From: an uncultured delta proteobacterium
Lineage (GTDB): Bacteria; Desulfobacterota; Syntrophia; Syntrophales; Smithellaceae
DNA: 63,736 bases
Direction of reading: 5' to 3'
NCBI GenBank assembly: GCA_903907985.1
Contig: CAIVQG010000058.1
Location: 1 to 63,736, forward strand
The position numbers and the translations under genes are program-made. A model generated the notes under the pieces. That model did no database searches. It saw nothing but the letters and a program-made list of their open reading frames with translations, and was not told the origin of the DNA. Numbering within the stretch: position 1 is the stretch's first letter; every line of letters begins with the position of its first letter. Positions 5,541-57,992 of this stretch are shown here, in pieces.

Positions 5541-5686
5541 GACGGCTTTGTCAAATACCCTGAAGGGCACGCGAGCTCCAGAGGCAAGGCACGCGAGCCC
5601 TGAGAAGTGAGGCGTATTTTTTACATACGCCGCAACGCCGAAGGCTGAAGCGCAACGCAGCATATGGGGCTTTTCACAAAACCGTC
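5541..5686. repeat. Repeat A, copy 1 (between the fumarase alpha and beta genes)
   Basis: A 146-base element shared with 9581-9706 and 28164-28270. Core features on the minus strand: CATATGCTGCGTTGCG, a CTTCGGCGTTGCG segment, then GCGTAT and ATACGCCTCACTTCTCAG. The two ends pair with each other: GACGGCTTTGTCAAATACCC (5541-5560) against the complement of 5667-5686. The right-hand end contains the TGA stop of the fumarase alpha gene (5674-5676). A local duplication of GCTCGCGTGCC makes this copy longer than the others. Confidence 0.88.
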
Positions 5687-9337: not shown

Positions 9338-9580
9338 TATTAAGCTGGAAAATCTATTTTAATTGGGATTGTTCAATATCATAATTATTCAGAAAATAAT
9401 ATCAATGATTACAGGTTCATGTCTTGAATATTTGCCGAGGCTAACAATTTGCGGTAATATCTTAAAATTCAACAGCCCTTTGGCTCGTTATTCCATGCAA
9501 GCAAAGCGCGACGAAGAGCCTACCATACACTTGATAAGGGGGGGGGGAAATTTAGAAAATTAAAGCTGTTTAATCCAATT

Positions 9581-9706
9581 GATGACGCCGCAAAAAGATC
9601 CAGAGGCAAGGCGCGCAAATCCTGAGAAGTGAGGCGTATTTTTGTATACGCCGCAACGCCGAAGGATGAAGCGCAACGCAGCATATGGACTTTTTCCGGT
9701 GTCATC
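9581..9706. repeat. Repeat A, copy 2 (abuts the recR stop codon)
   Basis: A 126-base copy of repeat A. Its ends are GATGACGCCGCAAAAAGATCC (9581-9600 region) and a right end whose complement reads GATGACACCGGAAAAAGTCC, so they pair although their sequence differs from the ends of copies 1 and 3. The right end overlaps the recR stop (9705-9707). Core shared with copy 1: AGAAGTGAGGCGTAT, ATACGCCGCAACGCCGAAGG and GCGCAACGCAGCATATG. Confidence 0.9.
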
Positions 9707-12356: not shown

Positions 12357-12460
12357 TGGTGGCCAGGTTTACCGCAACACACGATGGACATTGCTGCCGC
12401 TGCTTCCTTCCGGACCTGACGGGGTTCACAAGCCTCCGTTGCGCGGGACCCGGCCACACT
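12357..12460 (-). ncRNA. ffs: Bacterial signal recognition particle RNA (4.5S type)
   Basis: On the minus strand the conserved SRP domain IV loop region GTCAGGTCCGGAAGGAAGCA is present, flanked by a long hairpin whose ends pair (GTGGCCGGGT at the 5' side with ACCTGGCCAC at the 3' side). Total length is about 100 nt, the small bacterial form. It works with Ffh in co-translational membrane targeting. It is just upstream of dnaX, and repeat B copy 1 lies directly upstream of it. The exact ends are estimated from the pairing. Confidence 0.95.
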
Positions 12461-26800: not shown

Positions 26801-28165
26801 ATGAATAAAGTTCTAATAGTTGACGATGAATTAAATATGCGGCTTGTTCTGGCTGCTATGCTCAAAAAAGAAGGATATTCCATAACATCGGCAGCCGACG
26901 GCCGGGAAGCCCTGCAGATTTTACAATCCACCAAGATGGACGTTGTCGTTACCGATTTAAAAATGCCCAACCTTGACGGAATGGGATTGCTTCATTGCAT
27001 CACCGAACAATACCCGGAAGTACCGGTAATTATGATTACGGCGCATGGCACTGTCGCCACCGCCGTCGAAGCTCTCAAAAAAGGCGCACTGGACTATATC
27101 ACCAAACCTTTTGAACTCGATGATCTGAAGAACATTATTTCTAAAGCGATCAGAACCCGTACTTTAAATGAAAACGAATTGTTCTTACCGCCGGAAGAAA
27201 TAGAGAGAACCGGAATTATCGGCACAAGCGAACGCTCACTGGAGATTTTTGACTCCATCAAGAGAGTAGCGCCGACTACAACCACCATACTCATTACCGG
27301 AGAAACCGGCACCGGCAAAGAGCTGGTGGCCGATGCAATCCATTACAACTCGCCCCGCAAAAATAATCCGCTCATCAAAATCAATTGCGCGGCTATCGCC
27401 GAGACACTGATGGAAAGCGAACTCTTCGGCCATGAAAAAGGTGCTTTCACCGGAGCAACCATCACCAAACCGGGTAAAATTGAGCTTGCCCACAAGGGAA
27501 CTCTATTTCTGGACGAGGTCGGGGAAATTCCGCGGGACATGCAGGTTAAGCTTCTTCGCATGATCCAGGAGCAGGAATTTGAACGCGTCGGCGGCCTGAG
27601 GACAATCAAAGTTGATGTACGCATCATCGCCGCCACCAACAGAAATTTGCTGCAGGACGTTCAGTCCGGGAATTTCCGTGAAGATTTGTATTACCGGCTC
27701 AATGTTTTTCCTATTGTTGTACCGCCATTGCGCGACAGGAAAGATGACATTTTACCACTGGTTGATTATTTCACCGATAAATTTAATAAAAAGCTGGAAC
27801 TTTCTGTAGCTATTGATGGTGAAGTTAAAGAAATGCTTTTACGCCACGCTTGGCCGGGCAACATCCGTGAGCTGGAAAATCTAATGGAAAGAATGATGCT
27901 GCTGGCAAAAAACAATCTGGTTACTGGCAATGAGTTGCCCTCGGAATTGAAAGCCACCCTCGAAAACTCTCTTGCTGCGCAGCCGGCTGATGATAAAAAG
28001 CCCTTTAAAGATTTCATGCGGGACCACGTGGAAAATGTGGAGAAGCAAATGATTATCAATTGCCTGGAAGAATCCGGCGGAAATGTCACCAAAGCTGCCA
28101 AGCAGATGGGACTCAGCCGCAAGGGTTTGCAACTCAAGATGATTAAGTACAATCTGCGTAAGTGA
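26801..28165 (+). CDS. NtrC-family sigma-54-dependent response regulator
   Basis: A 454-residue regulator with three domains. Receiver: phospho-acceptor D52 in VVTDLKMPNLDG. AAA+: Walker A GETGTGKE (about 165), the sigma-54 contact loop GAFTGA (about 215) and Walker B LFLDEVGE. DNA-binding: a Fis-type helix-turn-helix ending NVTKAAKQMGLSRKGLQLKM. The complete GAFTGA loop means it can open sigma-54 promoters. Its stop codon (28163-28165) overlaps repeat A copy 3. Confidence 0.95.
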   Translation: MNKVLIVDDELNMRLVLAAMLKKEGYSITSAADGREALQILQSTKMDVVVTDLKMPNLDGMGLLHCITEQYPEVPVIMITAHGTVATAVEALKKGALDYITKPFELDDLKNIISKAIRTRTLNENELFLPPEEIERTGIIGTSERSLEIFDSIKRVAPTTTTILITGETGTGKELVADAIHYNSPRKNNPLIKINCAAIAETLMESELFGHEKGAFTGATITKPGKIELAHKGTLFLDEVGEIPRDMQVKLLRMIQEQEFERVGGLRTIKVDVRIIAATNRNLLQDVQSGNFREDLYYRLNVFPIVVPPLRDRKDDILPLVDYFTDKFNKKLELSVAIDGEVKEMLLRHAWPGNIRELENLMERMMLLAKNNLVTGNELPSELKATLENSLAAQPADDKKPFKDFMRDHVENVEKQMIINCLEESGGNVTKAAKQMGLSRKGLQLKMIKYNLRK

Positions 28166-28270
28166 CAGCCTCGTAAATAGTTAATATGCTGCGTTGCGGC
28201 GTATGGGAAAGATACGCCTCACTTCTCAGAACTCGCGCGCCTTGCCTCTGAAGCTTTTTACAAGGTTGTT
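28164..28270. repeat. Repeat A, copy 3 (begins inside the NtrC-type gene's stop codon)
   Basis: A 107-base copy in the opposite chromosomal orientation to copies 1 and 2, yet in the same orientation relative to the gene before it. Outer arms: GACAGCCTCGTAAATAGTT at the left pairs with the complement of AGCTTTTTACAAGGTTGTT at the right. It lacks about 20 bases between two CGTTGCG direct repeats seen in copies 1 and 2, consistent with deletion between them. Core: AATATGCTGCGTTGCG, TACGCCTCACTTCTCAG, GCGCGCCTTGCCTCTG. Confidence 0.88.
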
Positions 28271-28494
28271 AATTAAAGCAAGTCCTATCTTGATTACTGC
28301 TTTCATCTACAAATCAATGGTTTTCGATTTGAAATTGGCGTGAGGATTGCCGTTTGAACTCTAGCACCTGACAGTTTCAGTAGCAATTCCACAACACCAT
28401 ATACCTGAACCATTAGCGATGTGAGAGCACATGGAATCTCGATACAATCACGGCATTATAAATTACTGTTTGTTTCAAGCTAAAAGAAGTTTTT

Positions 28495-28938
28495 TTATTT
28501 GCCACTTTGATAAATTGACTCTAAAAGCCCATAAAATTCTAGTGACTCTTCTTTATCATCAAAACGTACTCGACAGTTTTCGTTACCTACAGAATAAGAA
28601 GGATTCGTTACCCCCCTTGTCGCGCGATATATTGGTGGGGTATCAAATCTAAACCGTCCTAAAAGCATAAGCTTTCTGGTGTTCTTGTCTATGGAACTGG
28701 GATCTATGTAATCGAATCCATTATTGGTAATATTCTTTACCATATGCATACAGCTTCCAATAACCGTTGCCGTGCATTTACCTTCAAAACGTTGCTTCAT
28801 TGTATTAATTAATTGATCTCGACTCTGCCCAGTTGTGTCCACGTATTTAGTCATTTCATGAGAGGCTGGTGGATTTGCTGCAGCACATCCAAATAACAAA
28901 GCTACGATAAACATTACATACATTCGAGATAAACTCAT
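28495..28938 (-). CDS. Small exported lipoprotein, paralogue 1 (unknown function)
   Basis: A 147-residue protein not recognised as a named family. A signal peptide ends in a lipobox (VALLFGC, cysteine 18), followed by AAANPPASHEMTKYV, so it is probably anchored to a membrane on the periplasmic side. It shares a layout with its upstream neighbour: PP, M-x-KYV, G-x-SR, FEGKCT, a second cysteine, and a C-terminal LEFYGLLESIY. Third gene of the caspase operon, 45 bases after its paralogue. The four non-lipobox cysteines (FEGKC, GSC, ENC and others) could form disulfides. Confidence 0.75.
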   Translation of the reverse strand: MSLSRMYVMFIVALLFGCAAANPPASHEMTKYVDTTGQSRDQLINTMKQRFEGKCTATVIGSCMHMVKNITNNGFDYIDPSSIDKNTRKLMLLGRFRFDTPPIYRATRGVTNPSYSVGNENCRVRFDDKEESLEFYGLLESIYQSGK

Positions 28939-28983
28939 ATTTTCACTCCTATGCTAACAAATTATTTCAATATAATAAGCATA

Positions 28984-29370
28984 TTAGTCCTTTGCAAGAT
29001 ATATAGATTCCCAAAGACCATACACTTTTAAAGCCAAAGTTTCCGCACCTACATCAAATCTAATGCCGTTTATATAACATTCATATCCATCATATGACAT
29101 AGTTGGTCGACTGTCAAAGCTATAATATTTACCTTGAACAAAGAAACCAGAAGAATTTACATTACGTATCTGACTAATGCAATTATAAGATGGACGCGAT
29201 ATGTTTGTGCACGCACCGTCAAAACCTTTGAAGCGATCAACTAACTCACTTCTACTTTTTCCAGTTACAACGTATTTGTTCATGTATTCTGGATTTGGTG
29301 GTGCAGATGCGCAACATAAAAAAAACAAAGATGATAATATTAAAAAAATTATCTTTATTGATATATTCAT
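28984..29370 (-). CDS. Small exported lipoprotein, paralogue 2 (unknown function)
   Basis: A 128-residue protein, clearly a paralogue of the next gene: signal peptide with lipobox SLFFLC (cysteine 19), then APPNPEYMNKYV, GKSRSELVDRFKGFDGACT, a second cysteine in YNCIS, and the ending LKVYGLWESIYLAKD. Tandem duplication is the simplest origin. No known domain is recognised. It lies 48 bases downstream of the caspase-like gene on the same strand, so co-transcription is likely. It may be a partner or substrate of the caspase (speculative). Confidence 0.75.
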   Translation of the reverse strand: MNISIKIIFLILSSLFFLCCASAPPNPEYMNKYVVTGKSRSELVDRFKGFDGACTNISRPSYNCISQIRNVNSSGFFVQGKYYSFDSRPTMSYDGYECYINGIRFDVGAETLALKVYGLWESIYLAKD

Positions 29371-29418
29371 ATTTCATCCTCTAAAAAAATATATATACAA
29401 CCTCTGCTTTTTTAGACG

Positions 29419-30363
29419 TCATTGCTGTTTATCTGGAACCATTCTCGTTTCATATTCAGGAGGTATCCAAGTTTTTACTTCAGTGCCAATGGCGCTTGTT
29501 GTGTTTTCCCAATGCCCTGGTGTCTTAATTACTTTTATTTTCTTCATTTTTGTTGGTGCAGAATCTTCATTATTTGCAACTTGATTTGCTGGAGATAAAT
29601 TCCCTTTTGCCGGCGTAAAGTAAAAATCGCCATTCAGGTTTGTATATTCAGCTGGTACTTGTTTTCCACCTGTCAACATGGCAAGTGAATTACGTACTTT
29701 TTTAAAAACCTGTTCTATGGACAGTCCGGGTTCCTGAATATGTTTTAACAATGCCGTGGTATAAGGGCTATTCCGGCCCTCACCATCACTAGCTGTCTGT
29801 CCTGCAGCAGTTGCATAGGAAATGATTGTTCCGGTGGGTGTTGTCGGAATGATAGCAAGTCCTCTACTCATGGACCGCGATATACTTGGGAACGGATTGT
29901 CGCGGCATGCGTCAAGAATGACAATGTTCATGTTGTTTTTTGCTATGTTTATTTTTTTTAGGATTCTATTTAAATCTACAGCTTCATGCTCTATATCATC
30001 TTTATCGCTCACATTGGCATTGATTGGGATTAGATAATTATTACCATCCACTTGAACCGCATGCCCGGCATAAAAAAACAATCCAACCCCACCATCCTTC
30101 AATGTATCCCCGAAATGATTGATGGCCTCAATCATTTCTCTTCTTCCGGCGTTTTTCTTCATCGTAACACGGAAGCCCAGCTTTTTCAGAGCCTCTCTAA
30201 TATCATTTGCATCATTGACGGAGTTTTTTAGACGTCCGAAGTTATAATCACCGTTTCCGATTACCAGTGCGGTGCGACGCTCGGTGTCAGCATATAGCAG
30301 GCTGGGTGCGATTAGTAAAAGTAAGAAGAAAAAGAAGGGAATTCTTATTAGAGAGAGTTGCAT
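29419..30363 (-). CDS. Exported caspase-family (peptidase C14) protease
   Basis: A 314-residue caspase-like protein. A signal peptide (residues about 1-25) is followed directly by the caspase fold: RTALVIGNGDYNFGRLKNSV, the catalytic histidine H101 in FFYAGHAVQ and the catalytic cysteine C153 in VILDACRDNPF, both intact. The chain continues through TNLNGDFYFTP (the usual end of the domain) to a 60-residue tail with TPGHWENTT and TWIPPEYETRMVP. Bacterial caspase-like proteins cut after basic or acidic residues depending on subtype; the target is unknown. A strong sigma-70-like promoter lies upstream and two paralogous lipoprotein genes follow. Confidence 0.9.
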   Translation of the reverse strand: MQLSLIRIPFFFFLLLLIAPSLLYADTERRTALVIGNGDYNFGRLKNSVNDANDIREALKKLGFRVTMKKNAGRREMIEAINHFGDTLKDGGVGLFFYAGHAVQVDGNNYLIPINANVSDKDDIEHEAVDLNRILKKINIAKNNMNIVILDACRDNPFPSISRSMSRGLAIIPTTPTGTIISYATAAGQTASDGEGRNSPYTTALLKHIQEPGLSIEQVFKKVRNSLAMLTGGKQVPAEYTNLNGDFYFTPAKGNLSPANQVANNEDSAPTKMKKIKVIKTPGHWENTTSAIGTEVKTWIPPEYETRMVPDKQQ

Positions 30364-30420
30364 CTATAAAAGACTCCTTTGAACCTTTCTTTGATAAAAC
30401 CTTCCTTATTTGCGGGGGGA

Positions 30421-30449
30421 AGTATAGGAAACGCGGCCTTGTATGTCAA
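30421..30449 (-). promoter_or_regulatory. Sigma-70-type promoter of the caspase/lipoprotein operon
   Basis: On the minus strand TTGACA (30449-30444) and TATACT (30426-30421) are separated by 17 bases, a near-perfect housekeeping promoter. The start of transcription would be near 30414, about 50 bases before the caspase start codon. This promoter separates the caspase operon from the cyclase gene upstream. Confidence 0.75.
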
Positions 30450-57894: not shown

Positions 57895-57992
57895 GGAAGT
57901 GCCAAGGTCACTGGTGGGCCTCCCGGACTTCAAATCCGGTGTGGGGCGCTAAAACCGTCCCAGGTGGGTTCGATTCCCATGCACTTCCGCCA
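57895..57992 (+). tRNA. selC: tRNA-Sec (anticodon TCA)
   Basis: A 98-nt gene including an encoded CCA end. The acceptor stem is eight base pairs (GGAAGTGC with GCACTTCC), as bacterial tRNA-Sec has and other tRNAs do not. The anticodon loop CTTCAAA in CGGACTTCAAATCCG carries TCA, which reads UGA. A long variable arm (GGGGCGCTAAAACCGTCCC region) and a T arm with TTCGATT follow. The cell can therefore make selenoproteins; selA, selB and selD are not in the window. A good TTGACA/TTTAAT promoter lies upstream. Confidence 0.97.

Follow-up and report, generated by a model that had tools for sequence, protein, structure and literature searches.

The window, the whole stretch of 63,736 nucleotides analyzed here, carries a real, tidy and apparently acquired orthocaspase operon, in which the new elements are two proteins of no known family. 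A gene for an exported caspase is followed by genes for two small paralogous lipoproteins, lip2 and lip1. Our preferred reading, held tentatively and at somewhat below even confidence, is that of a horizontally acquired envelope protease module in which lipid-anchored partners dock and control the caspase. The following features were located (window positions).

30449-30421, minus strand: sigma-70-like promoter TTGACA-17-TATACT, 11/12 consensus match
30363-29419, minus strand: caspase gene, ORF of 314 aa
29370-28984, minus strand: lip2 gene, ORF of 128 aa
29117-29089, minus strand: second promoter-like site, within lip2 and facing lip1, 11/12 match
28938-28495, minus strand: lip1 gene, ORF of 147 aa
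28166-30647: DNA without match in same-genus loci, from the response regulator stop codon to the 3' part of the cyclase gene
28166-28290: palindromic repeat of a dispersed type, bordering the insert on its 3' side and starting at the response regulator stop codon

On the minus strand, the gene order is caspase, lip2, lip1, with intergenic gaps of 48 and 45 nt; gene starts were taken as the longest-ORF starts, and overlaps and gaps are therefore approximate. Shine-Dalgarno-like stretches were recognized by reading ahead of all three genes (AAAGGAG, AGAGGAT and TAGGAGTG). The original prediction had described a near-perfect -35/-10 pair with 17-base spacing, and the site found, which starts 86 nt 5' of the caspase ATG, bears out this description with its score of 11/12. 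It is unlikely that this consensus match arose by chance, because the window has just three sites of at least 11/12 on both strands together (0.0235 per kb per strand). Two of the three fall in the caspase-lip2-lip1 block; about 0.004 sites of 11/12 grade are expected per 150-nt stretch. At the 9/12 level, the block region held 12 sites versus 7.6 (SD, 3.5) in shuffles, showing no clear enrichment. Since the second 11/12 site lies inside lip2 and faces lip1, lip1 may be transcribed from a promoter of its own.

We compared the site of the block with syntenic loci. At the cut used, orthologues of the response regulator gene (26801-28165) were detected in 22 of 30 genomes, counting the own, and the block was present at this place in none of the 11 syntenic relatives read, one of which (G003) has a contig ending about 1.1 kb beyond the regulator. 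DNA identity to two same-genus genomes (G001 and G002) stops at about 28165 and returns at about 30648; identity to G003 also ends at about the regulator stop codon. Other genes occupy the spot in these relatives. Between response regulator and cyclase, G001 carries a RelB/YafQ-type pair (Pfam; L106 8390-8973) and G002 a 4Fe-4S (iron-sulfur) protein with an exported protein (L107 9057-11007). In G003, a near-identical antitoxin follows the regulator together with a partner ORF, the two being RelB/YafQ-type by likeness (L105 481-1064). In G008, pyrG directly follows the regulator, and the remaining seven syntenic loci have other neighbors. The composition of the block is foreign: lip2 (0.233) and lip1 (0.304) have the lowest GC3 of the 47 window genes and the caspase gene (0.359) the fourth lowest, against a mean of 0.463 (SD, 0.066). 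Because the genes are absent from syntenic relatives, DNA identity breaks at both edges and GC3 is odd, the three genes look like acquired DNA and like the sole cargo of a variable spot. The expectation that they form one compact unit agrees with their being the whole, AT-rich cargo of this spot, and with a second operon of the same genome, which combines the same caspase clade with a small lipoprotein (see below).

The repeat at the edge of the insert probably does not belong to the caspase module. It is about 80 to 125 nt long and partly palindromic, with a conserved hairpin GGCGTAT...ATACGCC, and further copies lie at 9573-9698 and 5548-5641 of the window. The own genome contains at least 21 copies (candidates scored, 21 of 38), DNA matches were obtained in 21 of 35 genomes including the own, and no Rfam family matched it at gathering score. 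A second, weaker dispersed repeat (28299-28371) adjoins it. Several other observations were made around this site. In G010, just beyond the stop codon of the response regulator gene, its 3' end seems to be duplicated (L108 9873-9998). G034, of another genus, has a caspase-Lcl_C gene two genes ahead of the orthologous histidine kinase (L115 3688-8504), on the opposite side of the kinase/regulator pair. Rfam also placed a tRNA-Sec (57895-57988, plus strand) and a small SRP RNA (12358-12455, minus strand) in the window.

The caspase gene encodes an orthocaspase that is predicted to be exported by its signal peptide and has this layout.

Residues ~1-25: signal peptide (by reading)
Residues 29-248: caspase domain
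Residues ~255-314: tail

PF00656 matched over its whole model with 137.6 bits (cutoff, 21.4), and this was the only Pfam match above cutoff in the chain; the scan detected no fused FGE-sulfatase or Lcl_C domain. The catalytic dyad is intact, with H101 in FYAGHA and C153 in LDACRD. With a signal peptide that is plain by reading, the protein corresponds to the intact exported caspase that had been predicted. The last 60 residues retrieved nothing else better than an E value of 1.9 among the fetched proteins. The best PDB sequence match was MALT1 (3v4o; E = 7.2e-12, residues 30-157), in which both catalytic residues are aligned. D51 and D151 also align with MALT1 aspartates, which we take to be D365 and D462 of the S1 pocket. 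Based on these alignments and on the preference of orthocaspases for positively charged residues (available text of PMC6426788), the window caspase would cleave after Arg or Lys.

Next to the caspase gene, lip1 and lip2 are paralogous. They found each other by BLASTP with an E value of 4e-14 (29% identity, 45 identical columns), and their mature parts reached a Z of about 15 against 1000 shuffles. At 20 of the 45 identical residues, the two genes use different codons, and divergence is lowest at second codon positions, a pattern as expected if both genes are selected as proteins. No threshold was passed in four profile libraries, as anticipated for two paralogs of no recognized family: lip2 had no match in Pfam, NCBIfam or PADLOC and one weak PHROGs match (E = 0.022), and lip1 had sub-threshold matches only (Pfam, E = 0.17; NCBIfam, E = 0.15; PHROGs, E = 0.035). 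The shared motif layout described earlier is present in both, its exact C terminus being YGL(W/L)ESIY. The claim that both have a lipobox was upheld for lip1, with its canonical L-F-G-C18, but lip2 (F-F-L-C19-C20) is noncanonical. LFGC18 was flagged by reading and by the first of two lipobox rules, consistent with predicted lipidation; the stricter rule missed lip1 because R5 falls within its core. In lip2, Leu or Cys at position -1 is unusual, yet both rules flag this protein.

Homologs of the two lipoproteins were sought at increasing distance. Within the own genome, lip1 and lip2 found each other and otherwise only matches at E = 0.64 and 0.15. Among 59 relatives, lip2 matched in three, own included; the two non-own matches (E = 0.001 to 0.002) read as a polysaccharide-deacetylase-like protein and a lipoprotein signal region and were rejected. 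Profile searches recovered the lipoproteins in one of 155 genomes of the order and class, namely the own, and gave hits in two of 395 genomes sampled from the phylum, the own and one that was rejected as a homolog (21 bits, columns 8-52 at the signal-peptide end, internal stop). Pattern scans of genome and viral contigs, which reach close relatives only, detected no homolog. Plasmid collections yielded no relatives of lip1 or lip2, and a phage collection, searched with lip1 only as query, yielded none of lip1.

To describe the lipoproteins structurally, we used AlphaFold models built from two-row alignments, with a mean pLDDT of 66.0 for lip1 and of 74.1 for lip2, in which several blocks come close to 90. 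Both models show a helix at about 40-51, then strands (five in lip2, eight in lip1) and a long C-terminal helix. When Foldseek candidates were aligned by VIA-align, 151 out of 988 chains reached Z ≥ 5 with lip1 (best, 7.4) and 9 out of 88 reached Z ≥ 2 with lip2 (best, 3.6), all of these values lying below the Z of 8 under which a match may reflect a common arrangement. The best 50 chains listed for lip1 are presumably PH, PTB, EVH1 or Ran-binding domains, judged by title or residue range, and all nine lip2 chains we likewise take to be PH-like. Foldseek E values were not significant for either model. Comparison of the lip2 fold with viral proteins gave no significant match, and a new fold is not claimed. 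As a lead, the models weakly suggest a PH/PTB-like fold, a beta sandwich with a C-terminal helix cap.

The own genome contains 20 PF00656 matches, eight of them in the close family, the window gene counted. In a tree of 64 caspase domains, in which three truncated or broken genes (L060, L073 and L074) were kept, the nearest kin of the window caspase are two genes on contig C3 of the same genome, with which it forms a clade (support, 100/96). These two genes belong to the following operon.

L041 8448-5153, minus strand: C3 operon, longest-ORF genes overlapping by 8 and 11 nt

In order, it encodes a lipoprotein (199 aa), a caspase homolog (347 aa) and a caspase that carries an FGE-sulfatase domain (556 aa). 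An 11/12 promoter precedes it. In gene order, its GC3 values are 0.275, 0.261 and 0.278; the mean over 87 genes from 16 own-genome loci, counting the three C3 genes, is 0.471 (SD, 0.088). The 347-aa homolog (L041 6813-7856) has a lipobox and an intact Cys, and its catalytic His is replaced by Tyr (FYYSGYA). By its sequence, it is a predicted lipid-anchored pseudocaspase, the operon-mate of a caspase with an intact dyad. Tyr is the commonest substitute for the catalytic His in metacaspases according to the available text of PMC3501461. The C3 lipoprotein and lip2 gave a whole-chain phmmer E value of 3.5e-6, from a single comparison to which the signal peptide contributes. With mature parts only, it ranked 15th of the 2514 sequences reported (itself plus shuffles; 3001 given) and 6th of 396 among the reported fetched proteins. 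The shuffle test gave p of about 0.01 against lip2 and was nonsignificant against lip1, and hhalign was negative. A relationship of the C3 lipoprotein to lip2 is not claimed, in view of this p value, the negative hhalign result and the contribution of the signal peptide to the phmmer score. The genome may thus hold two acquired envelope caspase machines, each with an exported caspase on lipid-anchored partners (PH-like adaptors in the window, a lipoprotein and a pseudocaspase in C3); we consider this extension unlikely.

Other caspase genes of the genome were also inspected. A third short caspase (contig C42, L045) falls outside the window/C3 clade in the 64-domain tree; a lipoprotein gene starts one base after it, and its product has a weak OmpA match (22.1 bits, under the 27.2 cutoff). 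Additional caspase genes outside the close family lie on nine contigs (C25, C43, C46, C47, C50, C51, C64, C66 and C72); several encode a signal peptide or lipobox, and by reading they include WD40, PDZ, ankyrin or S41-protease-like parts. A 1427-aa exported ORF (L044 6598-10881) lies 25 nt after a caspase-FGE gene of the own genome, and a 1350-aa exported ORF (L053 6694-10746) lies 60 nt after a caspase-FGE gene of G003, whose FGE domain was assigned by reading. C-type-lectin sensors diversified by diversity-generating retroelements, some with FGE domains, are described in the available part of PMC10907252. Such a retroelement behind the FGE caspases was considered and rejected, the sole strong reverse transcriptase (contig C21) reading as group II intron type.

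We then counted co-directional lipoprotein genes within 100 nt of a caspase gene, using the two lipobox rules. Such a neighbor was found for four of the eight close-family caspases of the own genome. Outside it, the count was 4 of 56 with either rule and 1 of 56 with the stricter one, and 25 of these 56 have no co-directional neighbor at all within 100 nt. The truncated or broken genes named above were kept in this count, and ORF calling gave no caspase gene in 2 of 20 loci (L167 and L172) and in 1 of 21 (L080). The four own-genome cases are the three clade members, one of them by way of its pseudocaspase neighbor, and L045. The three close-family members of the own genome that lack a C-terminal Pfam fusion (314, 347 and 360 aa) all have a lipoprotein neighbor; of the five longer members, the C3 FGE fusion alone has one, in the same operon. 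As background, the stricter rule, which has visible false positives and misses lip1, flags as lipoproteins 8 of 150 genes in own-genome loci (about 5%) and 9 of 161 genes in synteny loci. Two simple rules were tried and dropped. That a short caspase always has a lipoprotein neighbor fails for L077 (369 aa), L162 (370 aa) and L168 (389 aa), and that long own-genome caspases stand alone fails for two with co-directional nonlipoprotein neighbors at 25 and 58 nt. The originally proposed check, whether lipoproteins consistently flank this type of caspase, gives a negative answer for the family at large: lipoproteins are not general companions of these caspases, but the own genome stands out. In a recurrent neighborhood (family f109; L160, L163 and L166), the caspase is followed in three genomes by two exported proteins, of 240 to 282 and 661 to 667 aa.

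In the envelope module that we tentatively prefer, the caspase would be exported by Sec and act in the periplasm. There, lip1 and lip2, as lipid-anchored binding modules with a possible PH/PTB-like fold, would hold the caspase at the membrane and control its activity. In this way, the pair would supply in trans the sensor or scaffold for which several paralogous caspases have a C-terminal FGE-sulfatase or Lcl_C fusion. The caspase tail (stretch WIPPEYETRMVP) would be the most likely docking peptide. This reading draws on the operon layout, the promoter, the ribosome sites, the exact coincidence with the cargo of a variable spot and the low GC3, and also on the related C3 operon with its lipoprotein and on the lipoprotein neighbors of all three short own-genome caspases. 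Weighing against it are the failure to find lipoprotein homologs that could show co-inheritance, the three short caspases that lack such a neighbor, a C3 lipoprotein without shown homology, PH-like matches below a convincing Z and the possible separate lip1 promoter. That promoter would also suit passenger genes, a caspase and lipoproteins with separate functions joined by chance in a gene-acquiring spot. The unrelated cargo in same-genus spots (a RelB/YafQ-type pair in G001, iron-sulfur and exported proteins in G002) and the scarcity of close lipoprotein neighbors outside the genome point the same way. Yet the tight co-directional layout behind one strong promoter and the shared odd composition argue for a joint unit, as does the lipoprotein in the second operon of the clade, set against the background of about 5%; passengers seem to us somewhat unlikely.

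The lipoproteins could instead be substrates, cut after the Arg of TG-x-SR (R40 in both) so that the domain is freed from its anchor. MALT1 favors a Ser before the cleaved Arg, and the SR is identical in lip1 and lip2, between the anchor and the folded core. The caspase is nearest by sequence to MALT1, which cleaves after Arg (available text of PMC3500650). Against this, R40 starts a helix in both predicted models (40-50 or 40-51), where SR-x-x may be a helix cap, and conservation across just two sequences says little, which leaves cleavage quite unlikely. Small duplicated partners downstream of a protease would also fit a protease-inhibitor pair, the lipoproteins being immunity proteins that restrain a harmful exported caspase; but no inhibitor family was matched, and related caspases occur without such partners, making restraint very unlikely. 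A link to programmed cell death or phage defense, suggested originally, found no specific backing and is highly improbable as the role of the block. Orthocaspases are discussed in this light in the available text of PMC3501461, and PADLOC gave a caspase match (E = 2.4e-11). This match, however, was generic and partial (PDLC02987, positions 5-130 of 453), and lip1 and lip2 had no PADLOC match. The EACC1-associated caspase model (NF047832) scored 56.1 bits, far under its cutoff of 140, no defense gene was seen among the neighbors read, and all three proteins are exported by reading. The lack of plasmid relatives of lip1 or lip2 and of phage relatives of lip1 also speaks against it.

Were the unlikely extension to two acquired envelope machines true, it would describe a platform for caspase activation that is tethered to the membrane on the outside of the cytoplasm, with partner genes whose fast turnover makes each look like an orphan. 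Control of the caspase by the lipoproteins would mean periplasmic caspase regulation by lipid-anchored partners, with the C3 operon as a second case. Twenty caspase genes occur in this genome alone, and a block of three genes behind a promoter of its own is small enough to be tested as a whole.

Compared with known systems, MALT1 is a eukaryotic cytosolic signaling protease with death and Ig domains, and these domains have no Pfam match in the window caspase. By sequence, it is nevertheless the closest solved relative, with both catalytic residues aligned. The window caspase resembles bacterial orthocaspases (PF00656; PMC3501461 and PMC6426788) in its H-C dyad and probable signal peptide. The available text of PMC6426788 has orthocaspases cleaving after positively charged residues and also treats pseudo-orthocaspases, and that of PMC10907252 counts peptidases of the caspase type as effectors in related conflict systems. 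The available text of PMC3501461 assigns 237 of 508 metacaspases to 217 predicted operons, ranks FGE-sulfatase fifth among the partner domains by spread and reports OmpA domains in 14 metacaspase operons; domain fusions are known too. Unlike in known orthocaspase operons, the partners in the window are two paralogous orphan lipoproteins; a literature search (mainly open-access, no preprints) returned, among the matches listed, none on caspases paired with orphan lipoproteins. Unlike orthocaspase fusions, the window caspase has its own tail instead of a fused partner domain. The own-genome fusions (L044, L041, L042 and L047), exported by reading and with caspase parts about 51 to 58% identical, carry a C-terminal domain in the chain, FGE-sulfatase in L041_07 and L044 and Lcl_C in L042 and L041_06. 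The C3 operon differs from the window in its longer, 199-aa lipoprotein of no shown homology, its pseudocaspase (H to Y) and its caspase-FGE fusion, but it shares the caspase clade, the AT-rich composition, a lipoprotein gene and a strong promoter.
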